Source: Alphaproteobacteria bacterium
GTDB taxonomy: Bacteria; Pseudomonadota; Alphaproteobacteria; Micropepsales; Micropepsaceae
Direction: 5' to 3'
DNA length: 41,668 nt
Assembly: GCA_028292825.1 (NCBI GenBank)
Contig: JAQGLO010000067.1
Location: 1-41,668, forward strand
The notes beneath the pieces are model-generated. The model was not told where the DNA came from. It saw nothing but the letters and a program-made list of their open reading frames with translations, and did not search any database. Positions 2,612 through 25,045 of this stretch are shown piece after piece (positions within the stretch are counted from its first letter, which is position 1; each line of letters begins with the position of its first letter). The position numbers and the translations under genes were made by a program.

Positions 2612-4693
2612 ATGAGTTCGATTACCCGCAGAACGATGATGGCCGCCTCGTCGGCAGCCGCGCTTTTGAGCACCGGCCGCGTCTTCGCCCAGACCGCGAC
2701 AAAGCCCGCCGCACCTGCCAATACCGACTGGCTGCATTACGCCAACGACCTCGCCAGCACCCGCTACGCGCCGCTGGACCAGATCAACGCCTCCAATTTC
2801 GACCAGCTGGAAATGGCGTGGCGCTTCTCGACCAATGCACTGGGCCCGCGCCTGGATGCCGACTACCAGTCGACCCCGCTGGTGGTGAAGGGCCGCATCT
2901 ATTGCACCGCCGGCTTCCGCCGCGACGTCGTCTGCCTGGATGCCGCCACCGGCGAACTTTTGTGGATGCACACCCATGACGAAGGCGAGCGCACCGGTTC
3001 GCGCGGCGGCCCCGGCCTGGGCGTCGGCTACTGGACCGACGGCGCCGCCGAGCGCGTGATCTACTGCACCCGCGGTTACAGCATGTTCTCGCTGGACGCC
3101 AAGACCGGCCTGCCCGATCCCGCCTTCGGCACAAATGGCATGGTCGATCTGCGCCAGAACGACGACCAGACCATGGACCCCACGCGCGGCATCATCGGCA
3201 TCCACGCCCCGCCGCTGGTGGTCAACAATGTCATCGTGGTGGGTTCGGCCCCCACCGCCTTTTCCAAGGGCTATGTGCGCGGCTTCGATGTGAAGACCGG
3301 CACGCGCAAATGGATCTTCCACACCGTCCCCCAGAAGGGCGAGTTCGGTTACGACACCTGGACCAAGCCGGGCCAGGCCGAAGCCACCGGCAATACCGGC
3401 GCCTGGGCGCCGATGTCGGCCGATACCGAACTCAATCTCGTCTATCTGCCGGTCGAACTGCCGCCCACCGACATGCTGGGCGTCACCCGCGCCGGCAATG
3501 CGCTGTTCGCCGAAAGCCTGGTGGCGGTGGACATCGATACCGGGGTGCGCAAGTGGCACTATCAGATGATCCATCACGGCCTGTGGGACCGCGACGTTTC
3601 CTGTGCCGGAATCCTGTGCGACATCCCGCAGGGCGGCAAGATCATCAAGGCCATCGCCCAGCCCACGAAGCAGGGCTTTGTCTATGTGCTGGACCGCACC
3701 AACGGCAAGCCGGTCTGGCCGATCCCGGAAAAGCCCGTGAAGATTGGCAAGGTGCCGGGCGAAGCCTATTCGCCGACCCAGCCCTTCCCCTCCAAGCCGC
3801 CGGCGTTCGAGAAGCAGGGCGTCACCGAGGCCGATTTCGTGGACTTCACCCCCGCCATCAAGGCGCGCGCCATGGAGATCGCCAAACATTACACCTGGGG
3901 CGGGCTGTATGAACCGCCGGCGGTGGTCAGCGACACCATCTTCGGCACCCTCAATCTTCCGGGCCTGCAGGGCGGCGCCAATTGGCCGGGCGGCTCCTAC
4001 GATCCGGAGACGCACACCCTCTATATCTATTCCAAGAACCAGTTCGAGATCACCGGCATCTCGGTGGGCGCGGACGGCAAGATCACTCAGCGCGGCGGCC
4101 AGCCGGCGGCGGGCAGCGCCGATCCCAATGGCGGCGCCTTTGGCGGCATCGCCAGCCTGAAGGGCGCCAGCGGCCGTGGCCGCGGCTCGGTGGGTGCGGA
4201 CGGCATGCACGATCCCATCGTTCCGGGCATGATCTCGGTGGAAGGCCTGCCGCTGATGAAGCCGCCCTATGGCAGCATCACCGCCATCGATCTTGCCAAG
4301 GGCGACATCAGCTGGCGCGTCACCCATGGCGAGACCCCGGACGCGATCCGGAACCACCCGCTGCTGAAGGGCGTCACCATTCCCAAGACCGGCCAGGCCG
4401 GCATCCTGGGCACCCTCACCACCAAGGCGCTGGTGATCTGCGGCGATTGCGGCCTTTTCACCGACGAGCATGGCAAGAAGGGCGCGCGCCTGCGCGCCTA
4501 TGACAAGGCCAGCGGCAAGGAAGTGGGCGCGGTGTTCATGGACAAGGTGCAGACCGGCGCCACCATGACCTACATGCATCAGGGCAAGCAGTATCTGGTC
4601 TGCGCCATCGGCAGCAGCTTCGGCGCCGACCTGGTGGCGTTCGCACTGCCGGGCGCAGTGGGCGGCGCCCAGCCGATCCGCGAAGAGCGCTAG
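2612..4693 (+). CDS. Exported PQQ-dependent dehydrogenase, glucose-dehydrogenase (Gcd)-like
   Basis: A 693-residue periplasmic quinoprotein that should oxidise a sugar or alcohol using pyrroloquinoline quinone. It starts with a Tat signal (ITRRTMMAASSAAALL, cleavage near VFA-Q). The rest is an eight-blade propeller with W-motifs such as DAATGELLW and DVKTGTRKW. Family resemblance is to membrane glucose dehydrogenase: HHGLWDRDV around residue 326 matches the E. coli segment holding the catalytic Asp, followed by VLDRTNGKPVWPIPE. Unlike Gcd it lacks the N-terminal five-helix quinone-binding domain, so the electron acceptor must be another protein. AGGGGAAG precedes the ATG. The TAG stop overlaps the stop of the convergent permease gene by 4 bp. 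No pqq synthesis genes are in the window. Confidence 0.9.
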   Translation: MSSITRRTMMAASSAAALLSTGRVFAQTATKPAAPANTDWLHYANDLASTRYAPLDQINASNFDQLEMAWRFSTNALGPRLDADYQSTPLVVKGRIYCTAGFRRDVVCLDAATGELLWMHTHDEGERTGSRGGPGLGVGYWTDGAAERVIYCTRGYSMFSLDAKTGLPDPAFGTNGMVDLRQNDDQTMDPTRGIIGIHAPPLVVNNVIVVGSAPTAFSKGYVRGFDVKTGTRKWIFHTVPQKGEFGYDTWTKPGQAEATGNTGAWAPMSADTELNLVYLPVELPPTDMLGVTRAGNALFAESLVAVDIDTGVRKWHYQMIHHGLWDRDVSCAGILCDIPQGGKIIKAIAQPTKQGFVYVLDRTNGKPVWPIPEKPVKIGKVPGEAYSPTQPFPSKPPAFEKQGVTEADFVDFTPAIKARAMEIAKHYTWGGLYEPPAVVSDTIFGTLNLPGLQGGANWPGGSYDPETHTLYIYSKNQFEITGISVGADGKITQRGGQPAAGSADPNGGAFGGIASLKGASGRGRGSVGADGMHDPIVPGMISVEGLPLMKPPYGSITAIDLAKGDISWRVTHGETPDAIRNHPLLKGVTIPKTGQAGILGTLTTKALVICGDCGLFTDEHGKKGARLRAYDKASGKEVGAVFMDKVQTGATMTYMHQGKQYLVCAIGSSFGADLVAFALPGAVGGAQPIREER

Positions 4694-6174
4694 GTCTCCG
4701 GATCGCCGTCCGTTTCGGCCGCGTGCGTGACGATGTAGGACGGCGCGGCCGGCGCGAAGGGATGCGTGCCTTTCAGCAGGGTCCAGCCGATGCCCAACAA
4801 CAGCGCCAGCACCGGCAGGCCGATCAGGATGGTGTAGGTGCCGGCGGGATAATCCATCGCCATCAGCACGATCACGCCTGCGAGGAATAAAAGGGTCATC
4901 CAGGCCATGATGCGGCCGCCCGGCATGCGGAACGGCACCCGCGCGATCTCGCCCCGGTCCTGCGCGCCGCGCAGCTTCATCTGGCAGATCACGATGAAGG
5001 CCCATGTGGAAACCACGCCCACCGACGAGATGTTCAGCACGATCTCGAACACCTTGTTGGGGACATAATAGTTCAGCACCACGCCACCGGCATAAATGAC
5101 CAGCGTGACGAGGATGCCGCTGTAAGGCACCCCGTCGCGGCTCATTTTGGAAACATACTTCGGCGCCGATCCGCCCATCGCCAGGCTCCGCAGCACCCGC
5201 CCCGTGGAATAAAGCCCGGAGTTCAGGCTGGACAGCGCTGCGGTCAGCACCACGATGTTCATCACACTGCCGATGCCCGGCACGCCCAGCGAACTGAAGA
5301 AGGTGACAAAAGGCGAAGTCCCCGCCTTGTACGCCGTCCAGGGTAACAGCATCACCAGCAGCACCACCGAGCCGACATAGAACAGGCAGATGCGCCAGAT
5401 CACATTGTTGATGGCGCCGGGCAGCACGGCGCGGGGATTTTCCGCTTCCCCCGCCGCGGTGCCCACAATCTCGATCCCGGCATAGGCGAACACCACGCCC
5501 TGGATGATGATGACGGCATTGGTGATGCCATGCGGGAAGAAGCCGCCATTCTCGGTGATCATGTGCAGGCCGGGCACGGCGCCGGCCACCGGATGCCCCA
5601 GGCCAAGGATCAGCGTGCCGATCACCAGGAAGGAGATCAGGGCCGCGACCTTGACCAGCGAGAACCAGAATTCCAGCTCGCCGAAGAATTTCACCGCCAG
5701 CATGTTCATGCCGCCGACAAAGCCCAGCGCGATGGCGGCGAAGATCCACTGCGGCACACCGGCAAAGGCGCCCCAGTAATGCATGTAGAGCGCCACCGCC
5801 GTGATATCGACGATGCCGGCATGGGCCCAGTTGAGAAAGAACATCCAGCCGGTGACGAAGCTGGCCTTCTCCCCCAGGAATTCGCGCGAATAGGACACAA
5901 AGCTGCCCGCCGTGGGGCGGTACATCACCAGCTCGCCCAAGGCGCGCAGGACGAAGAAACTGAAGATGCCGCAGACGCCATAGACCAGCGCCAGCGCCGG
6001 ACCCGCGATCTGCAGCCGCGCGCCCGCCCCCAGGAAAAGCCCGGTGCCGATGGCGCCGCCGATGCCGATCATCTGGATCTGGCGGGGCTTCAGGGCCTGG
6101 TGGTAGCCCGTGTCATGGGATTTCAGCCATTGCTGCTTGGCCTTGCCCGCGTCCGTCGTGTCGTCCAGAGCCAC
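4690..6174 (-). CDS. ansP: Amino-acid permease of the APC/AAT family, L-asparagine permease-like
   Basis: A 494-residue inner-membrane transporter with 12 predicted helices. The N-terminal motif GIGGAIGTGLFLGAGARLQ and later blocks such as NWAHAGIVDITAVALYMHYWG, GVVFAYAGIEIVGTAAGE and LSSLNSGLYSTGRVLRSL are those of proton-coupled AAT permeases, closest in my recollection to AnsP. Substrate assignment within AAT is less certain than the family; D-serine/D-alanine/glycine or GABA permeases are alternatives. The start is GTG (6172-6174) with AAGGTGG just upstream. Its stop shares CTAG with the convergent dehydrogenase stop (4690-4693). Its start diverges from the second PQQ dehydrogenase across only 83 bp, so both promoters must lie there. 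Confidence 0.87.
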   Translation of the reverse strand: MALDDTTDAGKAKQQWLKSHDTGYHQALKPRQIQMIGIGGAIGTGLFLGAGARLQIAGPALALVYGVCGIFSFFVLRALGELVMYRPTAGSFVSYSREFLGEKASFVTGWMFFLNWAHAGIVDITAVALYMHYWGAFAGVPQWIFAAIALGFVGGMNMLAVKFFGELEFWFSLVKVAALISFLVIGTLILGLGHPVAGAVPGLHMITENGGFFPHGITNAVIIIQGVVFAYAGIEIVGTAAGEAENPRAVLPGAINNVIWRICLFYVGSVVLLVMLLPWTAYKAGTSPFVTFFSSLGVPGIGSVMNIVVLTAALSSLNSGLYSTGRVLRSLAMGGSAPKYVSKMSRDGVPYSGILVTLVIYAGGVVLNYYVPNKVFEIVLNISSVGVVSTWAFIVICQMKLRGAQDRGEIARVPFRMPGGRIMAWMTLLFLAGVIVLMAMDYPAGTYTILIGLPVLALLLGIGWTLLKGTHPFAPAAPSYIVTHAAETDGDPET

Positions 6175-6257
6175 AGTCCCACCTTGATGCGCAACGCCAG
6201 AACGATAGAGTATCGGCCATAAAGAACAACAAGCGCGAAACCGCGCGGGTGGGAAAC

Positions 6258-8048
6258 ATGGCGAAAAAGACCTGGCTCTGGCCGGCGATCGCGGCGCTGA
6301 TGGCGCTTGGCAGCGCAGCTTTCGGGCAGGCTGCCCTCAAGGGCGCCACCATCGCGCCGCATCCCCTGGCCGAATACACGCCCGTGACCGATGCCGTGCT
6401 GCGCGCGCCCGATCCCTCGGACTGGATCATGATGCGCGGCAATTACCAGGGCTGGGGATTTTCCACCCTGGACCAGATCAACAAGACCAATGTGAAAGGC
6501 CTGCAGCTGGCCTGGGCCCGCACCATGGAGCCCGGCATCAACGAGGCGGCGCCCATCGTCTACAAGGGCGTCATGTTCCTGGGCAATCCCGGCGATGTGG
6601 TGCAGGCGATCGACGCCAGGACCGGCGACCTGCTCTGGCAATACCGCCGCACGCTCCCGTCGATGACCGCCCTGCACAACAATTACTGGGGCCAGAGGAA
6701 GCGCAGCGTCTTTCTCTATGACGACAAGGTCTACACCCTCACATGGGACAATTTCCTGGTGGCGCTGGATGCCAGGACCGGCAAGGAGGTCTGGGAGACC
6801 GATCGCGGCGGCGACCTGCAGGCCACCAACACCAACGGGCCCATCGTGGTGAACGGCGTGGTGATCGCGGGCGCCAATTGCCAGGAAGCACCGTTCGGCT
6901 GCTATGTCACCGGCCATGACGCCAGGACCGGCAAGGAGCTGTGGCGCAACACTGTCATTCCCAAAAAGGGCGAGAAGGGCGACGAGACCTGGGGCGGCAT
7001 GCCGTTCGAGCAACGCTGGATGACCGGCGTGTGGGGACCCATCACCTATGATCCCGAACTGGACATGGCCTTCTACGGCTCCAGCGGCGTGGGACCGTCC
7101 GCCGATGTGCAGCGCGGCGTTCACGGCGTCGCCACCCTGGCGGGCACCAACACGCGCTATGCCATCGAGCCCAGGACCGGCCGCATCATCTGGCAGCACC
7201 AGGTTTTGCCGCAGGACAATTGGGACCAGGAATGCACCTTCGAGATGATTCCCATCACGACGAAAGTCGCGCCCGATGTGAAGGAGAAAGGCATGATGGC
7301 CATCGGCCGCCGCGCCGCATCCGCCTCCCGCAAGACGTTGACCGGCGTGCCGTGCAAGACCTCCATCCTGTGGAGCTTCGATGCGGCCAAGGGCGATTTC
7401 CTGTGGGCCAAGTCCACGGTGTTCCAGAACCTGGTCAACGGCATTGATGCCAAGGGCAAGGTGACGGTCAATCCCGACCAGCTGATGACCGACCTGCACA
7501 AGACCTATCACCAGTGCCCGACGCATTCGGGCGGCCGCGACTGGCCATTCAGCGCCTACAGCCCGCAGACCAACATGCTGTATGTGCAGCTGCAGAATCT
7601 CTGCACCGACTATGCCGTGCGCGCGGACAATATCCCCTCAAAGCCCAAGGACCAGTACAACACCAGCGGCAAGCCGATGATTGCCGACGGCTCGGTCAAT
7701 ATCGGGCGGCTGGACGCCATCTCGGTGGAAACCGGCAAGACGCTGTGGAGCTGGGAGACGCCGGCCTCGAACTATTCGCCGGTGCTGGCCACGGCGGGCG
7801 GCATCCTGTTCAACGGCGGCATGGACCGTTATTTCCGCGCCTTCGACCAGCAGGGCGGCAAGGTGCTGTGGCAGACCCGGCTGGGATCGCAGGTGTTCGG
7901 CACGCCGGTCACGTTCAGGATTGATGGCCGCCAGTATGTCGCGGTGGCGGCGGGCGGCGGCTACAACACCGTCTCGCCCACCCTGCGCCCCGACATCGAC
8001 CAGGTCAGCGGCGGCAACATGGTCTATGTCTTCGCGCTGCCGCAGTAA
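6258..8048 (+). CDS. Exported PQQ-dependent alcohol dehydrogenase-like quinoprotein
   Basis: A 596-residue quinoprotein of the methanol/ethanol dehydrogenase branch with a Sec signal (KKTWLWPAIAALMALGSAAFG). Several DARTGKELW-type W-motifs mark propeller blades. QDNWDQE around residue 323 is the usual place of the catalytic Asp, and HTSGGRDWPFSAYSP is recognisable as the family's G-xx-W-xx-xAYxP block (there the sequence reads THSGGRDW). The adjacent-Cys ring typical of PQQ alcohol dehydrogenases is absent; instead there is NCQ-x5-GC, two Cys seven residues apart. No haem motif is present, so an external cytochrome is needed. I chose ATG 6258 with GGGTGGGA upstream over an in-frame GTG nine bases earlier. 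Only 9 bp separate its stop from that of the convergent permease-kinase gene. Confidence 0.87.
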   Translation: MAKKTWLWPAIAALMALGSAAFGQAALKGATIAPHPLAEYTPVTDAVLRAPDPSDWIMMRGNYQGWGFSTLDQINKTNVKGLQLAWARTMEPGINEAAPIVYKGVMFLGNPGDVVQAIDARTGDLLWQYRRTLPSMTALHNNYWGQRKRSVFLYDDKVYTLTWDNFLVALDARTGKEVWETDRGGDLQATNTNGPIVVNGVVIAGANCQEAPFGCYVTGHDARTGKELWRNTVIPKKGEKGDETWGGMPFEQRWMTGVWGPITYDPELDMAFYGSSGVGPSADVQRGVHGVATLAGTNTRYAIEPRTGRIIWQHQVLPQDNWDQECTFEMIPITTKVAPDVKEKGMMAIGRRAASASRKTLTGVPCKTSILWSFDAAKGDFLWAKSTVFQNLVNGIDAKGKVTVNPDQLMTDLHKTYHQCPTHSGGRDWPFSAYSPQTNMLYVQLQNLCTDYAVRADNIPSKPKDQYNTSGKPMIADGSVNIGRLDAISVETGKTLWSWETPASNYSPVLATAGGILFNGGMDRYFRAFDQQGGKVLWQTRLGSQVFGTPVTFRIDGRQYVAVAAGGGYNTVSPTLRPDIDQVSGGNMVYVFALPQ

Positions 8049-8057
8049 CAGCCCTGC

Positions 8058-10745
8058 TCAAACGGTCATCTTCGCGGCGTGCGGCAGCCTGCAGGTGCGC
8101 TCGGGGGGAAAAATCGCGGCCACCGTCGTGCCGACACCGACGGCGCTGGTCATTTCCAGCCGGCCGCCATGCAGCTGCATGAAACCATCCGCCAGCGGCA
8201 GGCCCAGCCCGGTGCCTTCGAATTTCCGCGCCAGAGATGAATCGATCTGCCGGAACGGCTGGCGCGCCAGCATGATCTGTTCCGGCGTCATGCCGATGCC
8301 GGTATCGCTGACCGCGATCACCAGCGCGCCATCGTCGCGAAGCTGCGCGACGATCGAGACGGCGCCGGGGCCCGCGGTGAACTTCACGGCATTGGACAGG
8401 AGATTGATCAGCACCTGGCGCACGCGGGTCTCGTCGGCATAAAGCGTGCCCATGTCCGGCCCGACCTCGCAGCGCAGCGCGATACCGGCCGTCTCGGCCT
8501 GCCGGCGCACCATGGCCAGGCATTCCTCCATCACGGCCGCGACATTGATGTAATGGCCCTGCAGCACGAACTCGCCCGAGCCGATCTTGGCCATGTCCAG
8601 CACTTCGTTGATGATTTTCAGCAGATGGAGGCCGGACCTGTGAATGTCGCCGGCATAATCGCCATAGGCGGCCGTGCCCACCGGCCCCAGGGTCTCGCTG
8701 CTGATGATTTCGGAAAAGCCGAGAATGGCGTTGAGCGGGGTGCGCAGTTCGTGGCTCATGCCGGCCAGGAACGAACTCTTGGCGGCGTTGGCGGATTCCG
8801 CCGCCTCCTTGGCTTCGACCAGCTGCAGGTTGCTGATTTCCAGCCGGCTGTTGGTATCGATCAGGGCGGCGCGGGCCCCGCGCAGGCCTTCGCGCGCCGC
8901 ATTCAGGCCCTGTGCCGCTTCGGCGATTTCGCGCTGCAGGATGTTGAAGCTGGCCGCCATCTGGCCGACCTCGTCACGCGAATTGACGGTGACGGGAAAG
9001 AAATCGCCCCTGACATAGGCGCCGCTGAGATCGCCCCTGCCCAGGGACTGCAAGGCGCGCACGAAATCGGCCAGGGGCCCGCGCACCAGCCGGTCGGCCG
9101 CCTGCGACACTTCCACGACCGAATGGGCAATCATCCCCGGCAGCAACAGGCCGACGGCGATTGTCAGGATGGCCACGGCGACGAAGATGTCTTCCAGGCC
9201 GGCCTTCATCGCAAGATTGCCCGGCGCCATGTTGCCCACCGCCAGCAGATAGCCCGCAGCGTCCATCGCCAGCACCGCCAGCATCGCCCCGGTCAGCTTC
9301 AGGTGCAGCGTATTGCCCACCCCCTTGAGCCCGGCGCGGCGGCGGTCGGTGAATTTGCGCCAGGCATACAGCGCGGCGCCGGAATAGGCGAAGCCCAGGC
9401 CTACCAGCACCGTCGGCAGGCCGAATTGCTGGAAGCCCAGGATTGCCGAGAGGCCCCAGACCGATGCCGCCGCCAGTCCCAGCCAGATGGTGCCGCGCGG
9501 CGCGCGGTAAAGCCGCTCCAGTTCGGGGCGGTCGCGCCGCAGCAGCCACACCGCCACCGACGGCAGGCAGATGGAAATCAGATAGGTGAAGTTGGCCGAC
9601 GCGATCAGCCAGACCGGATCGCCCATCAGCAGGAACGCGATCGCCATCGCCGCCGTCAGCAAGGTCGCCACCCAGGGCGCATCGCTGGCCGCGCGGCGCG
9701 CCAGGAATGCGGGCACCAGGCCGTCTTCGGCAAGCTGCGCCAGGGTGCGCGCCGCACCGGCCAGAGGCTGGATGGTGCCGTGGAACATGGTGAACATCAT
9801 GAAGCCTATGGCGGCGGCCTTGCCCGCAGCGCCAAACAGCGGCGCGAATGTCGGCCCCAGCACGATCGCCAATTCACTTCCCAGCTTGTGCGGTCCCAGC
9901 GCGCCCAGCCACACCACCGGCAGGACGACGAAATAGACGATGGCCATCAGCGCGCTGACCAGGACGGCGCGCGGCACTTCGCGCGCCGGATTGACGGTCT
10001 CGCCAACATGGCAGGTCGCCGCTTCAAACGCCGGCGCCGCGAAGCCGATCAGATAAAGACCCGCCATCAGGCTGGTGAGAGAGCCGAACCAGCCGGCAAA
10101 GGGCGTCGTCAGGTGAAAATCCACCGCCTGGCGCCAGTCGACGTTACCGGCCATGACCGGCAGCAGGCCCGACAGCAGCGCCAGCAGCGACGAGGCCGCC
10201 GCGATAGGCACTACCATGCGGCTGACCCATTTGATGCCGCACAGATTGACGCCGGCGAACAGCAGCACCAGGCCGCTGGCCAGCATCGGCACCGGCACAT
10301 GCGGCAGATACCATTGATGGATGGCCGAAGCCGACAGCAAGGCGGTGAGGCCACAGGTCGGCACCCAGCCCCACCAATAGCCCACACCCGCCAGGTTGGC
10401 GAGAATGGGACTGTAGCGGCCAAAGGCCTCCGAGCAGGTGGCGGCGATGCCGCCCACCCGGTTGGGATAGAGCAGCACCAGTTCGGTCCAGCCGGGCGCC
10501 GCCGCGATGCTGAGCAGCAGGCCGAACATCAGCAGCGGCACGGCGGCACTGCCCTGGCCCGGAATGGCGCCCTGGCCGACAAAAAGCGCGGACAGAAGAA
10601 ACAGACTCTGGTTGCTGCCGCCCATGGCAAGCGCCGCCGTGCCGACCCAGGTCAGGCTGCGCGGATGCGGCGACGCAGAGCGATCACCCGGTGTTCTGGC
10701 TACAATTTCGCCATCGGCTGTGCGGGCGCGAAAAGCAGGCCACAT
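8058..10745 (-). CDS. APC-type permease fused to a HAMP histidine kinase
   Basis: This 895-residue protein joins two modules normally encoded apart. Residues ~30-480 form an APC amino-acid/polyamine permease core with about 12 helices (for example VNPAREVPRAVLVSALMAIVY and FHGTIQPLAGAARTLAQLAEDG). Two further helices (~485-545) lead to a HAMP-like segment ending in DEVGQMAASFNILQREI and a coiled coil. HisKA follows with SHELRTPLNAILGFSEI, phospho-acceptor His665. HATPase_c has the N box NLLSNAVKF (~783), G1 DTGIGM (~815) and G2 GTGLGL. There is no receiver domain and no response regulator in the window, so it is an orphan kinase. AGGAG lies 9 bases before the ATG. By analogy with CbrA (transporter of another family plus kinase) it may sense a transported amine or amino acid; that is inference. 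Confidence 0.9.
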   Translation of the reverse strand: MWPAFRARTADGEIVARTPGDRSASPHPRSLTWVGTAALAMGGSNQSLFLLSALFVGQGAIPGQGSAAVPLLMFGLLLSIAAAPGWTELVLLYPNRVGGIAATCSEAFGRYSPILANLAGVGYWWGWVPTCGLTALLSASAIHQWYLPHVPVPMLASGLVLLFAGVNLCGIKWVSRMVVPIAAASSLLALLSGLLPVMAGNVDWRQAVDFHLTTPFAGWFGSLTSLMAGLYLIGFAAPAFEAATCHVGETVNPAREVPRAVLVSALMAIVYFVVLPVVWLGALGPHKLGSELAIVLGPTFAPLFGAAGKAAAIGFMMFTMFHGTIQPLAGAARTLAQLAEDGLVPAFLARRAASDAPWVATLLTAAMAIAFLLMGDPVWLIASANFTYLISICLPSVAVWLLRRDRPELERLYRAPRGTIWLGLAAASVWGLSAILGFQQFGLPTVLVGLGFAYSGAALYAWRKFTDRRRAGLKGVGNTLHLKLTGAMLAVLAMDAAGYLLAVGNMAPGNLAMKAGLEDIFVAVAILTIAVGLLLPGMIAHSVVEVSQAADRLVRGPLADFVRALQSLGRGDLSGAYVRGDFFPVTVNSRDEVGQMAASFNILQREIAEAAQGLNAAREGLRGARAALIDTNSRLEISNLQLVEAKEAAESANAAKSSFLAGMSHELRTPLNAILGFSEIISSETLGPVGTAAYGDYAGDIHRSGLHLLKIINEVLDMAKIGSGEFVLQGHYINVAAVMEECLAMVRRQAETAGIALRCEVGPDMGTLYADETRVRQVLINLLSNAVKFTAGPGAVSIVAQLRDDGALVIAVSDTGIGMTPEQIMLARQPFRQIDSSLARKFEGTGLGLPLADGFMQLHGGRLEMTSAVGVGTTVAAIFPPERTCRLPHAAKMTV

Positions 10746-10946
10746 ACGCTGACGCTCCTATCAACCACCCGCGCCTAGGCGATGCTGCGAGGACTGGCGA
10801 TTGTGGAGATTAGCCAATGCACGTAAATGAATGTTAAACTCGAATACATGAACCTTGGGAACTCGGCCAGGATTCGCGAAGCGCGGGTATAATCCGAAAA
10901 ACGCCGTTTACCTTCCATATCAAGGACAGCCGTCTGTCGCCGCAGC

Positions 10947-11003
10947 AGCGGCGCCAACATGGTTTATGATTTCGCGCTGCCGCCGGGACTAGAGCGCGCC
11001 TGA
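10947..11003 (+). pseudogene. Relic of a PQQ dehydrogenase 3' end
   Basis: The 39 bases from 10947 match the last coding bases of the second PQQ dehydrogenase (8010-8048) at 34 of 39 positions. In frame they read SGANMVYDFALPPGLERA-stop beside SGGNMVYVFALPQ-stop in the intact gene. Upstream of 10947 the similarity fades within about 20 bases and there is no open dehydrogenase frame, so only the extreme 3' end remains. The relic overlaps the last codons of the minus-strand zinc peptidase. Together with the intact copy it makes a direct repeat bracketing the permease-kinase gene. The rest of the 243-bp gap (10746-10988) holds nothing else I can support. Confidence 0.65.
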
Positions 11004-11834
11004 AAAGGTATCGCAGGCATCCATGTCGCCCTGCGCCAGCCCGCGCTGGAACCAACGCATGCGCTGGGCGCTGGTGCCGTGGGTGAAGCTGTCGGGCACG
11101 ACATAGCCTTGGGCTTGCTTCTGCAAGGTATCGTCGCCCACCGCCGAGGCTGCCTTCAGGCCCTCCTCCACATCGCCGGTCTCCAGCATGTGTGACTGCT
11201 GGTTGGCGCGATATGTCCATACGCCCGCATAGCAGTCCGCCTGCAGTTCGGTCCGCACCGAGGCGCCGGTGGCGCCGCGCGCGCTGGCCTCACCCCGCTC
11301 CATCGTGCCCATCAGGTTCTGGATGTGATGGCCATATTCATGGGCAATGACATAGGCGCGGGCAAAATCGCCGGCCGCGCCGAAGCGCTGGCTGAGTTCG
11401 TTGTAGAAAGACAAATCGAGATAGATGTTGGAATCGTCTGGGCAATAGAAAGGCCCGGCCGACGACTGGCCGGTGCCGCAGGCGGTCGGTGTCACCTGGT
11501 CGTAAACCGTCAGGGTCGCGGGCGTGAAACGCACGCCCTTCTGCTCCAACAGCGGCTTCCAGACATCCTCCGCCGAGCCGATGATGTGGCGGGCAAAGGC
11601 GCAGTCGGCATCGGTGCATCCGGTGCCCTGCTGCTGCACACGCTGGACAGGCGCCTGCCCGCCGCCGTTCAGGAGCTGGCTGGGATCGACGCCGAACAGC
11701 AGCGAGATCACCACCACCGCCACCAGGCCCAGCCCGCCGCCGCCCATCGCCAGGCGCGGCCCGAAGCCGCCGCCGCCACCTTCGCCGCGGCGGTCATCCA
11801 CATTGTCGCTCTCGCGCATATCGTCCAGGCGCAT
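10989..11834 (-). CDS. Neutral zinc metallopeptidase (YpfJ family), membrane-anchored
   Basis: A 281-residue member of the putative neutral zinc metallopeptidase family (PF04228, YpfJ-like). After a charged N-terminus (MRLDDMRESDNVDDRRG) and a glycine-rich stretch comes one membrane helix (LGLVAVVVISLLFGV), so the catalytic part faces the periplasm. The zinc site is H165-E-Y-G-H169, followed by the family blocks ELQADCYAGVWTY and GDDTLQKQAQG, then SFTHGTSAQRMRWFQRG. Length and block order are normal. The ATG at 11832-11834 has AAGAGG upstream, better than more distal in-frame starts. It diverges from the TonB receptor gene; its 3' end overlaps a quinoprotein gene relic. Natural substrates of the family are poorly known. 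Confidence 0.9.
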   Translation of the reverse strand: MRLDDMRESDNVDDRRGEGGGGGFGPRLAMGGGGLGLVAVVVISLLFGVDPSQLLNGGGQAPVQRVQQQGTGCTDADCAFARHIIGSAEDVWKPLLEQKGVRFTPATLTVYDQVTPTACGTGQSSAGPFYCPDDSNIYLDLSFYNELSQRFGAAGDFARAYVIAHEYGHHIQNLMGTMERGEASARGATGASVRTELQADCYAGVWTYRANQQSHMLETGDVEEGLKAASAVGDDTLQKQAQGYVVPDSFTHGTSAQRMRWFQRGLAQGDMDACDTFSGAL

Positions 11835-11880
11835 GGCAAAACCTCTTGTAACCGGCAGGGTAGAATGTGGATAAAGCATC

Positions 11881-11942
11881 CGCAACCAATCGGTTGCGTG
11901 ATTGCCTTGGCGGCGGCGCGCGGTTAGCGTGCGCCGCCTTTT
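11881..11942 (+). terminator. Two adjacent hairpins, the second terminator-like, just upstream of the TonB receptor gene
   Basis: Hairpin 1 (11881-11898) pairs CGCAACC with GGTTGCG. Hairpin 2 (11912-11938) is an 11-bp GC stem, GGCGGCGCGCG with CGTGCGCCGCC (one G-T pair) around loop GTTAG, followed by TTTT at 11939-11942. It has the form of an intrinsic terminator read on the plus strand, 13 bp before the ATG of the TonB receptor. No plus-strand gene lies upstream for it to terminate, because the preceding gene is divergent. A role in attenuating the receptor transcript is the simplest reading; none of the usual B12-riboswitch boxes is visible and the leader is short. Confidence 0.55.
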
Positions 11943-11955
11943 GTGAGCCCCCTGC

Positions 11956-13824
11956 ATGCGCGTTGCCTTTGCCGGATTTGCCGGCCTGTTGTCCTTGTGC
12001 GTGACCGCCGCCGCACAGCCGGCCGAAACCGTCATCGTCACCGCCACGCGGCTGGAAGCCACGGCCGGCGCCAATGTCAGCGTGCTGGACGCCGCCACCA
12101 TCGCCAGCCGCAATCCGGGCAGCATCGTCGACCTGCTGCGCGACCTGCCCGATGTCTATGTGCAGCAGTCGGGCGGCAGCGTGGTGTCGCTGTTCACCCG
12201 CGGCGCCAAACCCAACTTCACGCTGGTGCTGCTGGACGGGGTGAAGGCCAACGATCCCACCAACACCCGCGGCGGATCGTATGATTTCTCGACCCTGGAC
12301 CTGAACGATATCGAACGGATCGAGTTCGTGCGCGGCCCGGCGTCCGCCATCTATGGCTCCGATGCCGTGGGCGGGGTGATCAACATCATTTCGCGGCGCG
12401 GCGGGCCGGTGTTCGATGCGGGGGCGAATGTCGAAGGCGGCTCGTTCGGTTACGTCCGCACTTCCGGCCATGTCGGTGGGCCGCTGTCTTTTCTGGGCGA
12501 CGGCGCGACCGCCAATCTCGGCATTGCCTATACCGACAATGGCATGCCGGTGGCGGGCAGCACATCGCGCGGCCTCAGCCTGGATGGATCGCTGGCGCTG
12601 CCGCAAATCGCGGGCGTGGCGCTTTCGCTGAACGGCCGCTTCGGCAGCAGCGTGGCGGGCGCGTTCCCGGACTCCAGCGGCGGCCCCCGGCTGGCGGTGC
12701 TGCGCAGCCTCGATCACCGCGACATCGACGAAAGCGTGCTGGGCGCCCATGCCCGGCGCGCGGTGCTGGAAGGCTGGGACATGGCGCTGGACTATGGCTA
12801 TTACGGCCGCCAGTCCGACGCCGTCTCGCCCGGCGTCGCGCCCAGTCCCCAGACGCCCACCGGCATTCCGGACAGCGGTGACAAGGCGCGCTTCAACCGC
12901 CATCAGGTCACCTGGACCAATCATCTGTCCTTCGGCGCGGTCGAAGCGGCCATTGGCGTCGACATGCAGGCCGAGCATGGCGTGGATGACGGCTTCCTGG
13001 ATTTCGGCTTCCACATTCCCACCCACTTCGCCTTGAACCGCACGCTGTGGGCCGGCTTCGGCGAAGCACGCTGGCGGCTGGACGAGAAGCTCAGCCTGTC
13101 GGCCAGCGGACGCTATGACAGCGCCGGCGGAGAGACCCATTTCAGCCCGCAGTTGCGGGCCGATTATGCGCTGTTCGAAGACACGGCGCTGCAGGTCTCG
13201 TGGGGCCGCGCCTACAAGCTTCCCAGCTTCTATGCCCTGGGCAATCCGATCGTGGGCGATCCCAGCCTGAAGCCGGAAGACGCCGAGACCTTCGAAGGCG
13301 GCGTCACGCAGAAATTGGGCGACTTCGGCACCTGGAAAGTGGAAGCCTTCGCCACCGATTATTCCGACCTGATCGATTTCCAGCCCGGCGCAGTGCCGAA
13401 ACTGGTGAACCTGTCGCGGGTGCATGTGCGCGGCATCGAGACGTCGATGGAGCTGCACTGGGGGGCGCTGACCGCGACGCCGCGCCTGTCCTATACCAAC
13501 GCCCGCAACCAGGCGACCAATGCGGCGCTGCGTGATGTGCCCAGCTGGCTGGCGGGCGCGACCCTGCTGTGGCGGCCCAGCACCGACTGGGATGTGAGCT
13601 TCGACCTCAGCCATGTCGGCGCCCTGGTGGATAATGCCGTGCCCACCGGCGATGTGCCCCTGCCCGGTCATGTCCGTGCCGACCTGGCGGCCAGCTATGC
13701 CCTGACGCAAAATATCAAGCTGCACCTGGGCATCGATAACCTGTTCGATGCGCATTACGAGGAGGTGGTCGGCTTTCCCGCACCGGGCGTGGTGATGCGC
13801 GGCGGCATCAGCGCGGCGCTTTGA
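11956..13824 (+). CDS. TonB-dependent outer-membrane receptor, BtuB-like
   Basis: A 622-residue outer-membrane receptor that should import a scarce ligand using TonB energy. There is a Sec signal (VAFAGFAGLLSLCVTAAA), a TonB box (E24-TVIVTATR), a plug domain (~35-150) with LLRDLPDVYVQQSGG and IERIEFVRGPASAIYGSDAVGGVINI, then a beta-barrel ending DNLFDAHYEEVVGFPAPGV. Length and plug sequence fit the cobalamin-type BtuB branch, but no cob genes or recognisable cobalamin riboswitch are present, so the ligand is open. The C-terminal residue is Leu rather than the usual aromatic. Terminator-like hairpins lie just upstream. The last 17 bp overlap the convergent ABC permease gene. Confidence 0.87.
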   Translation: MRVAFAGFAGLLSLCVTAAAQPAETVIVTATRLEATAGANVSVLDAATIASRNPGSIVDLLRDLPDVYVQQSGGSVVSLFTRGAKPNFTLVLLDGVKANDPTNTRGGSYDFSTLDLNDIERIEFVRGPASAIYGSDAVGGVINIISRRGGPVFDAGANVEGGSFGYVRTSGHVGGPLSFLGDGATANLGIAYTDNGMPVAGSTSRGLSLDGSLALPQIAGVALSLNGRFGSSVAGAFPDSSGGPRLAVLRSLDHRDIDESVLGAHARRAVLEGWDMALDYGYYGRQSDAVSPGVAPSPQTPTGIPDSGDKARFNRHQVTWTNHLSFGAVEAAIGVDMQAEHGVDDGFLDFGFHIPTHFALNRTLWAGFGEARWRLDEKLSLSASGRYDSAGGETHFSPQLRADYALFEDTALQVSWGRAYKLPSFYALGNPIVGDPSLKPEDAETFEGGVTQKLGDFGTWKVEAFATDYSDLIDFQPGAVPKLVNLSRVHVRGIETSMELHWGALTATPRLSYTNARNQATNAALRDVPSWLAGATLLWRPSTDWDVSFDLSHVGALVDNAVPTGDVPLPGHVRADLAASYALTQNIKLHLGIDNLFDAHYEEVVGFPAPGVVMRGGISAAL

Positions 13825-21535: not shown

Positions 21536-24500
21536 ATGAATAGCAAAACCCTGGTCGAACAGGCCCTGGCGCTGCACCGCAGCGGGAAGCTGGCGGACGC
21601 CGAGGCGCTGTATGTCCGCGCCGCGCAAGCCGATGCCGGCGATGCCGCCGTCCGCAATTCGCTGGGCGTGGTCCTGGCCCAGCAGGGGCGCGGCGCCGAG
21701 GCGCTGAATGCGCTGGACGCGGCGCTGGCGCTGCGGCCTGATGATGGCGAGATCATCCTCAACCGCGCCAATGTGCTGCAGATGCTGGGGCGCCCAGCCG
21801 AGGCGCTGCCCGGCTTCGATCATGCGCTCAACGCAAGGCCCGACTCGCCGCAGTTGCTGAACAATCGCGGCAGCGCGCTGGCGGACCTGGGACGCACCGC
21901 CGAGGCGCTGGAAAGTTATGACCGGGCCGTGGCGCTGGCGCCGACCTTCACCCCGGCGCGGAACAACCGGGGCGGGCTGTTGCTGGCGCAACAACGCTTT
22001 GCCGAGGCGCTGGCGGATTTCGACAGCGCGCTGCAGGCCAAGCCGGACGATCCCGTGCTGCTGAACAATCGCGGCAACGCCTTGCAAGGCTTGCTGCGCT
22101 ACGACGATGCGGTGACGGCCTATACCGACGCCATCGCGCGCGCACCGAAGATCGCGGAGACCTTCAACAACCGCGCCACCGCTTTGCAGCAGATGAAGCG
22201 CCACGGCGCGGCGCTGGCGGATTTCGAGACGGCGCTGGCGCTGGACCCGGCACAGCCGCATGCCTTTGGCGGCGCGGCCATGGCGGCGCTGAACCTGTGC
22301 GACTGGGAGCGGGTGGCGCGATTCACGGACGAGATGCCCGCGCGCATCGGTGAAGTCCCGCCCTGGGTGCTGCTGGGCTATAGCGGCGACGAAGCCTTGC
22401 AGCTGGCATGCGCCCGCGCCGCGATCGGCAAACGCTTTGCCAATTTGCCGCCGCCGCTGGCGACCGGCGGCTACAAGCATGACCGCATCCGGTTGGCCTA
22501 TGTCTCGTCGGATTTCCGCCATCATCCGGTGGCGGCGCAGATCGCGCGGGTGATCGAGCGACATGACCGCAGGCGTTTCGAGGTGATCGGCATTTCCACC
22601 GGTCCCGACGATGGCAGCCCGCAGCGGCGGCGGCTGATGGCGGCGTTCGACAGCTTCCACGACATGCGCGGCCGCGGCCCTGCCCAGATCGCGTACGCCT
22701 TGCGCGCGATGGAAGTGGATGTGCTGGTCGACCTGAACGGCCATACCGACGGCGACAATTTCAACATCCTGGCGCACCGCCCGGCGCCGGTGCAGGCGAC
22801 CTGGCTGGGCTATGCCGGCACCACCGCCGCGCCGTTCATCGACTGGCTGGTCGCCGATGCCGTAGTGGCGCCGGACGCTGCCGCCTTTTCGGAAAAACTG
22901 CTGCGGTTGCCGGGCTGCTTTTTTCCGGTGGATGACAGCCTCGCCCCCGGCATCGCGCCAATGCGCGCCGACCAGGGCCTGCCGCCGGATGGCTTTGTCT
23001 TCTGCTGCTTCAACAACAACTGGAAATTCACCGCCCCGGTCTTCGCCATCTGGATGCGGCTGTTGCAGGCCGTGCCCGGCAGTGTGCTGTGGCTTAAGCA
23101 AGCCGGCGAAGCGCTTCCCAATCTGCGCCGCGCCGCGCAGGACGCCGGCATCGATCCCGACCGGCTGGTGTTCGCCAAGGGCGCAGCCCTGGATGTGCAT
23201 CTGGCCCGCCACGCTTTGGCCGACCTGTTCCTCGACACCCTGCCCTACAACGCCCACGCCACGGCCTGCGACGCGCTGGCGGCGGGGCTGCCGGTGCTGA
23301 CCTGTCGTGGCACCGCGTTCGCCGGACGGGTGGCGGCCAGCATGCTGACGGCCAGCGGCGTGCCCGAGCTGATCGCCGAAACGCCGGAAGAATACGAAGC
23401 CATGGCGCTGGCATTGGCGCGCGATCCGGCGTGGCTGAAAGCCTTGCGCCAAAAGCTGGCCGCCAACCGCGCGCTGTTCGACACGGCGCGCTTCACGCGC
23501 GATCTGGAAACCGCCATCGAAGACATCTGCCGCCCGCCCGGTGCCGGCGCGCTGGTCGCGCAAGGTCTCACTGCCCTGGACCATGGCCATGGCGAAGCGG
23601 CGCTGGCGCTGTTCGATCGCGCCATCGCCGCCGATCCCATGCGGGCAGCGGCGCACCAGGGCCGCGGCCGCGTGCTGGCGCTGGAAAAGCGCAATGCCGA
23701 AGCGCTGCAGAGTTTCGAGCGGGCCCTGGCGCTGGACCCTTCGTCGCCGGAGGCCTTTGACGGCGTGGCGCTGACGGCGCTGCATCTGTGCGACTGGCCG
23801 CGCGTGGCGCAAATCGGGCTTGAGCTCGCAAGCCGCATCGCCGCCGGCCAGGAGGTGTCGCCCTGGACCCTGCTGGGCTATAGCGGCGACGCGGCGTTGC
23901 AGCGGCGCGCGGCGCAGCGCGACATCGCCGCCCGCATCCCGCCTTTCGCGCCCTTGTGGCGCGGCGAGCGCCATGGCCATGGCCGCATCCGGCTGGCTTA
24001 TATCTCGTCGGACCTGCGCCGGCATGTGGTGGGCGGCCAGATCGTGGAGCTGATCGCGCGCCACGATCGCAGCCGCTTCGAAGTGCTGGGCATCGCCACC
24101 ACGCCGGATGACGGCAGCGCCCTGCGCGCCCAACTGGTGGGGGCCTTCGACCAGTTCCATGACGTCAGCGGGCAAAATCCCCTGGAGATTGCGCGGCTGC
24201 TGCGGGCGCTGGAAGTGGATGTGCTGGTCGACCTGAACGGCCACACCCAAAGCGAGAATTTCGCCGTGCTGGCGCAGCGCCCCGCGCCGGTGCAGGCGAG
24301 CTGGCTGGGCTATGCCGGCACCACGGGCACCGATTTCCTGCACCAGATTGTCGATGATGTGGTCGCGCCCGATGTGGCGGAATTTTCCGAAAAGCTGCTG
24401 CGGCTGCCCCACAGTTTCTTTGTCAGCGACACCAGCCGCGTCCTCGGCGCGTGCCCCAGCCGCGCGCAACAGGGGTTGCCGGAAGACCGCTTGGTGTTCT

Positions 24501-25045
24501 GCTCCTTCAACAACAACTGGAAGATCACCGCGCCCGTCTTCGCCCTCTGGATGCGGCTGCTGGATGCGGTGCCCGGCAGCGTGCTGTGGCTGCGCCAGTC
24601 GGGCGGCGGCGCCGACGCCAACCTGCGCCGCGCCGCCAAGGCCCATGGCGTCGCGCCGGAGCGGCTGGTTTTCGCCGCGCGCGAGGAGGATATCGGCGTG
24701 CATCTCGCCCGCCATGCGCTGGCCGACCTGTTCCTCGATACCCTGCCCTACAATGCCCATGCCACCGCTTGCGACGCGCTGTATGCGGGCCTGCCGGTGC
24801 TCACCTGCCGGGGCACGGCCTTTGCCGGGCGGGTCGCCGCCAGCCTGCTGACGGCAATCGAAATGCCCGAACTGATCGCGGAATCGCCTGAAGATTATGA
24901 AGCGCTGGCCCTGGCCCTGGCGCGCGAGCCGGCGCGACTGGGAGAGTTGCGCGCAAAGCTCGCCGCCAACCGTGCCACCGCGCCGCTGTTCGACACGACG
25001 CGCTTCGCCCGCGACCTGGAAGCGGCGCTTATTTCTCTGCTCTGA
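21536..25045 (+). CDS. TPR protein with two tandem O-GlcNAc-transferase (GT41) domains
   Basis: A 1169-residue cytoplasmic protein with the order TPR - GT41 - short TPR - GT41. Residues ~1-245 are about seven TPR units (for example RPDSPQLLNNRGSALADLGR). GT41 copy 1 (~315-655) begins IRLAYVSSDFRHHPVAAQI with likely catalytic His330 and has FNNNWKFTAPVF with Lys497 at the donor site. About two TPR units (~665-745) lead to copy 2 (~817-1165), with His830 in SSDLRRHVVGGQI and Lys996 in FNNNWKITAPVF. The copies are offset by 500 codons and share near-identical blocks such as LPYNAHATACDAL. Related bacterial enzymes glycosylate proteins, including flagellins; the target here is unknown. Its last 17 bp overlap the convergent cytochrome gene. 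Confidence 0.92.
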   Translation: MNSKTLVEQALALHRSGKLADAEALYVRAAQADAGDAAVRNSLGVVLAQQGRGAEALNALDAALALRPDDGEIILNRANVLQMLGRPAEALPGFDHALNARPDSPQLLNNRGSALADLGRTAEALESYDRAVALAPTFTPARNNRGGLLLAQQRFAEALADFDSALQAKPDDPVLLNNRGNALQGLLRYDDAVTAYTDAIARAPKIAETFNNRATALQQMKRHGAALADFETALALDPAQPHAFGGAAMAALNLCDWERVARFTDEMPARIGEVPPWVLLGYSGDEALQLACARAAIGKRFANLPPPLATGGYKHDRIRLAYVSSDFRHHPVAAQIARVIERHDRRRFEVIGISTGPDDGSPQRRRLMAAFDSFHDMRGRGPAQIAYALRAMEVDVLVDLNGHTDGDNFNILAHRPAPVQATWLGYAGTTAAPFIDWLVADAVVAPDAAAFSEKLLRLPGCFFPVDDSLAPGIAPMRADQGLPPDGFVFCCFNNNWKFTAPVFAIWMRLLQAVPGSVLWLKQAGEALPNLRRAAQDAGIDPDRLVFAKGAALDVHLARHALADLFLDTLPYNAHATACDALAAGLPVLTCRGTAFAGRVAASMLTASGVPELIAETPEEYEAMALALARDPAWLKALRQKLAANRALFDTARFTRDLETAIEDICRPPGAGALVAQGLTALDHGHGEAALALFDRAIAADPMRAAAHQGRGRVLALEKRNAEALQSFERALALDPSSPEAFDGVALTALHLCDWPRVAQIGLELASRIAAGQEVSPWTLLGYSGDAALQRRAAQRDIAARIPPFAPLWRGERHGHGRIRLAYISSDLRRHVVGGQIVELIARHDRSRFEVLGIATTPDDGSALRAQLVGAFDQFHDVSGQNPLEIARLLRALEVDVLVDLNGHTQSENFAVLAQRPAPVQASWLGYAGTTGTDFLHQIVDDVVAPDVAEFSEKLLRLPHSFFVSDTSRVLGACPSRAQQGLPEDRLVFCSFNNNWKITAPVFALWMRLLDAVPGSVLWLRQSGGGADANLRRAAKAHGVAPERLVFAAREEDIGVHLARHALADLFLDTLPYNAHATACDALYAGLPVLTCRGTAFAGRVAASLLTAIEMPELIAESPEDYEALALALAREPARLGELRAKLAANRATAPLFDTTRFARDLEAALISLL

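Follow-up and report, generated by a model that had tools for sequence, protein, structure and literature searches.

A candidate membrane receptor made of an APC-type permease module fused to a histidine kinase, and the spread of its input module

The gene at 8058–10745 of the window (the whole 41,668-nucleotide stretch analysed here, contig JAQGLO010000067.1 of a Micropepsaceae genome, GCA_028292825.1) is a real fusion of an APC-type permease part with a signalling kinase. We consider it probable (roughly 70%) that it encodes a membrane receptor derived from an APC-fold permease, in which a solute causes the core to rock and the movement reaches the kinase through two extra helices (TM13–14) and a HAMP domain, the input part being a portable module. 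It is proposed that 1) a small solute common to the whole family would bind the central site formed by helices 1, 3, 6, 8 and 10, 2) rocking of the APC core would be passed, via the dedicated TM13–14 and HAMP, to a presumed histidine kinase dimer, 3) the dimer would then shift its autophosphorylation or phosphatase state, 4) the window kinase, putatively of the PdhS/DivJ/PleC type, would act most likely on unlinked DivK and PleD, and 5) the same portable input module may elsewhere serve hybrid kinases, HisKA_2 or HisKA_3 kinases, or GGDEF-EAL enzymes.

The gene is a single uninterrupted 895-codon ORF running from 10745 down to 8058, with an ATG start preceded by AGGAG, by consensus a possible ribosome-binding site. 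Its parts are:

8058..10745, minus strand: APC-permease/HAMP/histidine kinase fusion gene, 895 aa (one open frame and Pfam)
10755..10759, minus strand: possible ribosome-binding site AGGAG, nine bases before the ATG (sequence)
9321..10670, minus strand: APC core of 12 helices, aa 26–475 (Pfam AA_permease, structure model, and fold match of model residues 1–450)
9096..9308, minus strand: TM13 and TM14, two extra conserved transmembrane helices, aa 480–550 (model and family conservation)
8925..9092, minus strand: HAMP domain, aa 552–607 (Pfam, 32.9 bits, cut-off 25)
8574..8783, minus strand: HisKA with His665 (Pfam)
8103..8435, minus strand: HATPase_c, aa 771–881 (Pfam, 84.5 bits; N, G1 and G2 boxes present)

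In the Pfam search, AA_permease (E 2.6e-15; 56.5 bits, cut-off 24.6), HAMP (E 8.3e-8), HisKA (E 6.3e-17) and HATPase_c (E 8.8e-24) follow one another in this order, each over its gathering score, and the kinase boxes are complete (phosphoacceptor His665, N box at 781, G1 at 814 and G2 at 844). The GC content of the gene (67.0%) is like that of the window (65.8%). A preliminary description of this DNA had read the gene as an unbroken 895-codon frame holding a 12-helix APC core, two extra helices, a HAMP-like linker, HisKA with His665 and an HATPase. The frame stood, as did the layout (by Pfam and the structure model), the domain search placing the N-terminal part in AA_permease above the cut-off, with an APC fold.

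The structure predicted for aa 26–622 with 78 family sequences (mean pLDDT 89, pTM 0.85) consists of the APC core (aa 26–475), two more helices and a long helical tail holding the HAMP region. By both model and fold match, the core has the 12-helix APC fold. The 50 fold matches listed are APC and related cation-chloride carriers (Z 29.3–38.1 over 379–425 residues), with AdiC, BasC, ApcT and LAT1 among the APC matches; the nearest solved fold among those listed, for model residues 1–450, is y+LAT1 (Z 38.1, 425 residues, rmsd 3.3, 16% identity).

Substrate is bound by helices 1, 3, 6, 8 and 10 in APC carriers. Conservation was measured on the 78 module sequences, with pocket residues assigned by helix and not from model coordinates. 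Mean entropies were 0.70 (TM1), 0.56 (TM3), 0.59 (TM6), 0.74 (TM8) and 0.58 bits (TM10), with TM2 likewise low at 0.71, compared with 1.09–1.61 for TM4, 5, 7, 9, 11 and 12; the values for TM13, TM14 and HAMP were 0.88, 1.08 and 1.49. By this helix assignment, the low-entropy helices are those where APC carriers bind substrate, and the near-invariance of TM1, 3, 6, 8 and 10 points to one ligand common to the whole family. Fourteen residues (G42, G43, Y123, W124, W125, G126, W127, P129, G234, F235, A237, P238, A239 and E241) are invariant in all 78 sequences, and fall in three motifs:

10605..10622, minus strand: TM1 motif GGSNQS, aa 42–47 (G42 and G43 in 78/78, N45 and Q46 in 77/78, S44 in 60/78, S47 in 72/78)
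10359..10379, minus strand: TM3 motif YWWGWVP, aa 123–129 (78/78 save V128, 73/78; W..W.P common to three TmoP sequences)
10023..10046, minus strand: TM6 motif GFAAPAFE, aa 234–241 (six of eight positions in 78/78; A236 in 65, F240 in 75)

TM13–14 have motifs of their own (KLTGAM..VL.LDG.GY..A and L.DIFVAVA.LTI.VGLVLPGM) and are likely the mechanical link from the core to HAMP.

The fusion is no one-off. One genome for each of 84,980 species was scanned by contig for relatives of the input module, using an alignment of three modules as the query and drawing candidates via two peptide patterns from the fused proteins, which favours close relatives. The scan gave 94 relatives, and the best 80 of these, on which the analysis was done, match 533–597 module residues at 50–74% identity (best segment). 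The 78 modules (window included, three broken-frame loci left out) fall into eight phyla: Pseudomonadota (34), Verrucomicrobiota (26), Actinomycetota (13), and Myxococcota, Chloroflexota, Omnitrophota, Dormiibacterota and Vulcanimicrobiota (one each). Named strains that have the module include Verrucomicrobia bacterium IMCC26134 (complete genome), Glaciimonas immobilis, Paraburkholderia kururiensis, Roseiarcus fermentans and Actinoplanes palleronii; the remainder are mostly metagenome-assembled genomes.

Close to home the module is rare. Of 146 other relatives surveyed, a single one gave a close homologue (69% identity; it belongs to a different genus of the family). Among further genomes sampled, the class gave one in 384 (73% identity) and the phylum none in 397. 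In the class and phylum surveys, in which at most 3 and 4 candidates, respectively, were scored per genome, all other matches had 25–32% identity over parts of the query, bar one that is another piece of the gene from the class member with the 73% homologue. Nothing fell between these identities and those of the close homologues, no unfused permease exceeded 32% identity to the module, and neither a kinase match nor GGDEF was found behind the unfused permease in any of the 21 loci checked. Six stretches of viral contigs fitted a pattern, none of them a relative. Among plasmids (best 5000 records), one match, from Paraburkholderia sp. PREW-6R, covers at least 80% of the query (97% covered, 56.8% identity); the other 14 plasmid matches listed begin at aa 454 or later. 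As a separate observation, two contigs of one draft genome (L016, 1–2057, and L017, 1–1310) have 649 bases in common at 96.6% identity inside the fusion gene, and stops interrupt the copy that lies at the L016 contig end, which may be a strain variant or a contig-end error (L016 is the same locus as L021, and L015 the same as L027).

The C-terminus was readable (at least 200 residues) in 74 of the best 80 loci, and every one of the 74 has a signalling output, HATPase_c in 55 and GGDEF in 19, with which the motif assignment agrees (the GGDEF motif of L056 reads AGDEF). Other domains in these loci are HisKA (44), Response_reg (32), EAL (18), Hpt (7), HisKA_2 (5), HisKA_3 (3) and HD_5 (1), with up to 18 loci for PAS families; the output class of each locus was assigned from motifs and Pfam, HisKA being the default for L057 and L078. 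Outside this count are L040 and L051, which run off the contig end, L021, with stops near the contig end, L081 and L086, with broken frames, and L038, with a stop 78 codons past the module. By tblastn, L040 and L021 continue into kinase-like sequence, L081 matches the HisKA_2-like relative L030 and, in a different frame, L086 matches the GGDEF region of L034; no output was found by tblastn behind the module in L051 or L038, and L038 is possibly the one exception to the rule that the module comes with an output. The preliminary description had suggested a receptor, and the joining of the module to signalling outputs, c-di-GMP enzymes included, in all readable relatives supports that reading.

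A quick maximum-likelihood tree of the modules, without bootstrap, was rooted on three TmoP sequences (long rows: L094, L095, L097 and L077). The fused modules form one group, in which the output class (five classes) changes at least 16 times and kinase and GGDEF switch at least 8 times (75 labelled rows), and phylum requires at least 10 changes (78 rows). These changes fit a sensor that has moved among lineages and been coupled anew to local outputs. The window gene itself illustrates this: between it and the IMCC26134 fusion, identity is 73% in the module and only 40% in the kinase. Against verrucomicrobial members among the 25 best, the window kinase has 36–43% identity; it is 57% identical to the kinase of L017, the fusion of the class member, while a paralogue encoded in the window's genome has 53% identity to it and the receiver-kinase gene downstream of the fusion in L015 has 52%. 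In L015, from a member of the same bacterial family (8078–12875), the fusion is a 1193-aa permease-HAMP-kinase-receiver-HPt protein, the receiver and HPt being read from the sequence, and its end overlaps a second gene for a 407-aa receiver-kinase. The verrucomicrobial assembly CAIJNQ01 (bin-1889) holds the module twice, fused in L036 to a HisKA kinase and in L060 to a HisKA_2 kinase, the L060 copy having an overlapping receiver gene downstream.

SLC5 and APC carriers belong to the same wide fold class. The closest functional parallels are the SLC5/STAC histidine kinases (CbrA, CrbS and RpuS), in which a carrier is likewise fused to a histidine kinase in nutrient signalling, according to the available parts of PMC9100948, PMC7096432 and PMC13022988. 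They differ from the present family in that i) the window protein has AA_permease and no SSF match at E up to 1 (Pfam), ii) CbrA has STAC and PAS where the APC fusion has TM13–14 and HAMP (by Pfam and model), and iii) the APC module family also has GGDEF-EAL outputs. Ks-Amt5 is similar in that a transporter fold was turned into the sensor of a fused kinase, transport having been lost and ammonium controlling the kinase (PMC5764959, in the portion available), but it is an ammonium-transporter trimer without HAMP, with another fold and another ligand.

The CbrA case also frames the main alternative, a working carrier with a loosely attached kinase, whose APC part imports substrate and only tunes kinase kinetics. 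The available text of PMC7096432 describes a carrier part that transports L-histidine and an SLC5 domain that modulates kinase activity without being needed for it; because L-histidine had no significant effect on the CbrA kinase activities, fusion does not by itself prove that a permease gates its kinase. The window protein also keeps the whole 12-helix carrier core. We nevertheless regard this alternative as unlikely and favour a receptor, because the outputs are exchangeable, several output types with one module fitting a sensor better, and because close unfused carriers are absent from the genomes searched. In addition, Lys and Arg are absent from module positions 155–173 of TM5 in all 78 sequences, which we take to be where proton-coupled ApcT has Lys158 (an ApcT K158A entry is among the fold matches listed); this counts against one kind of coupling only, as exchangers too can be without the TM5 Lys.

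It is considerably less probable again that the two helices with HAMP, or the cytosolic domains, are the true sensor and the permease a passenger. Such an arrangement is suggested by the conservation of TM13–14 in their own right and by permease-less kinase genes on Azospirillum plasmids (e.g. NZ_CP059451.1, 640929–642035) that match TM13–14, HAMP and the kinase part, aligned from about aa 456 to 873–888 at 34–35% identity, and which are a possible hint to the origin of the fusion. However, a passenger would be expected to decay, and the permease helices TM1, 3, 6, 8 and 10 are more conserved (0.56–0.74 bits) than TM13, TM14 and HAMP. As the 80 loci were picked by permease patterns, the frequency of the tail without a permease is not readable from them. 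Finally, the prospect that a chimeric assembly or a frameshift joined two genes, for which one could cite the draft state of the source genome (219 contigs) and the stops near a contig end in one relative, is negligible and is contradicted by the identical order in the complete genome of IMCC26134, in isolate assemblies and in the Paraburkholderia plasmid match spanning 97% of the query.

The kinase gene is an orphan on its contig. The preliminary description had noted no response regulator nearby, and indeed none of the 44 receiver (PF00072) places of the genome (82% complete) lies on the window's contig, whose one HisKA place (of 39 in the genome) is the fusion gene itself. In the family at large, 32 of the 74 readable loci have a built-in receiver, and in 16 of the best 80 loci a receiver-bearing gene (receivers read from the sequences) begins within 70 bp downstream on the same strand. 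Either a change to a DivK-type kinase or a loss could account for the partner missing beside the window gene. PdhS (193 bits, cut-off 2000) and DivJ (190 bits, cut-off 1000) are among the best matches of the kinase domain, both far under their cut-offs, with TorS scoring slightly above them; PdhS/DivJ/PleC-type kinases resemble the window protein in the kinase domain and differ in the input domain. The genome encodes 11 paralogues of the window kinase (42–53% identity) and a protein with a DivK-like sequence motif followed directly by a frame with two receivers, an order known from divK-pleD. On grounds of similarity, DivK/PleD would be our first guess for the partner of the window kinase, with about even chances of being correct.

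The ligand could not be approached through the neighbouring genes, which in the window are:

2612–4693 and 6249–8048, plus strand: two different PQQ beta-propeller dehydrogenases (quinoproteins)
4690–6174, opposite strand to both quinoproteins and between them: AnsP-like amino acid permease

From these neighbours, sensing of amino acids or amines had been guessed at the outset; the guess found no support, as these neighbours are not shared. In a tblastn search with five adjacent window genes, only the two quinoproteins matched, both in one locus (L053) at 27–30% identity, and the AnsP-like permease had no match at E 1e-10 across the 81 loci. Pfam analysis covered the 137 nearest neighbours, at most one ORF per side and from 73 of the 80 loci; the ORFs were chosen on length, with no gene finder, and those above 900 aa were left out. 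Response_reg occurred in 19 of these neighbours and each metabolic family in two at most. Clustering of ORFs from 84 loci (the window, L015, L016, L017 and the best 80 of 94 relatives) yielded no more than three clusters with at least 4 loci: receivers/kinases (25 loci), ABC ATPases (13) and one of 4. As neither analysis gave a lead, assignment of a ligand from gene context was dropped.

The permease core itself gives a weak indication. For the window protein and two other members, the nearest named permease model is TmoP (NF053774; 119, 127 and 120 bits, cut-off 690), followed by TIGR00909 (54–74 bits in the three). TmoP is the trimethylamine N-oxide permease of Methylocella silvestris (PMC5520151, in the part available). 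It has W..W.P in TM3 and FE in TM6 in common with the module, but it is an unfused carrier with 26–30% identity to the module (two sequences measured), and the 690-bit cut-off is reached by none of the three; proteins scoring 831–897 on the TmoP model are present in three genomes of the class. Amino acid carriers have a GxG-type carboxylate site in TM1, which does not extend to the APC superfamily as a whole. The window module has NQS (N and Q in 77/78 sequences) where, placed by sequence, the AnsP-like permease of the window has GTG, and TmoP likewise lacks GTG in TM1. With NQS in place of GTG, and with a TMAO permease as the nearest named family, the case for an ordinary alpha-amino acid as the ligand is weakened. 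Quaternary-amine carriers have aromatic cages, which the aromatic TM3 residues of the module recall. These features are no more than leads towards a methylated or quaternary amine, a ligand that we would call possible rather than probable.

Transporter-kinase fusions are already known, and the APC module family appears to be new. Searches of the open-access literature, with subscription journals mostly outside their reach, brought up no APC permease with a fused kinase or GGDEF domain, and the available parts of PMC8846402, PMC1183210, PMC6978683, PMC1592074, PMC10333796, PMC9756655 and PMC11109136 contain no such fusion; Na+/proline symporters fused to kinases are mentioned in PMC1592074. This agrees with the preliminary description, which knew of fusions with SSS-type transporters and of no established, characterised one with an APC permease. 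The accessible portion of the 2026 structure preprint on CbrA describes this protein as a "rare example" of a transceptor. We think it an evenly balanced question whether the broader picture also holds, namely that an APC carrier fold has become a dedicated portable receptor whose single conserved ligand site may accommodate a methylated or quaternary amine, and that this receptor, present in at least eight phyla, has been installed in phosphorelays as well as in c-di-GMP enzymes through horizontal transfer and the swapping of domains. With at least 80 loci, one very conserved pocket region and exchangeable outputs, the module family lets one ask how the conformational cycle of a carrier drives a kinase or a diguanylate cyclase; the module is also a ready part for building biosensors, and the family is testable in isolates (Roseiarcus fermentans, Actinoplanes palleronii and Glaciimonas immobilis).

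Elsewhere in the window, positions 21536–25045 (plus strand) encode a 1169-aa protein with many TPR repeats and a glycosyl transferase family 41 domain (O-GlcNAc-transferase type) by Pfam, and a tRNA-Thr (GGT) gene is located at 569–643.
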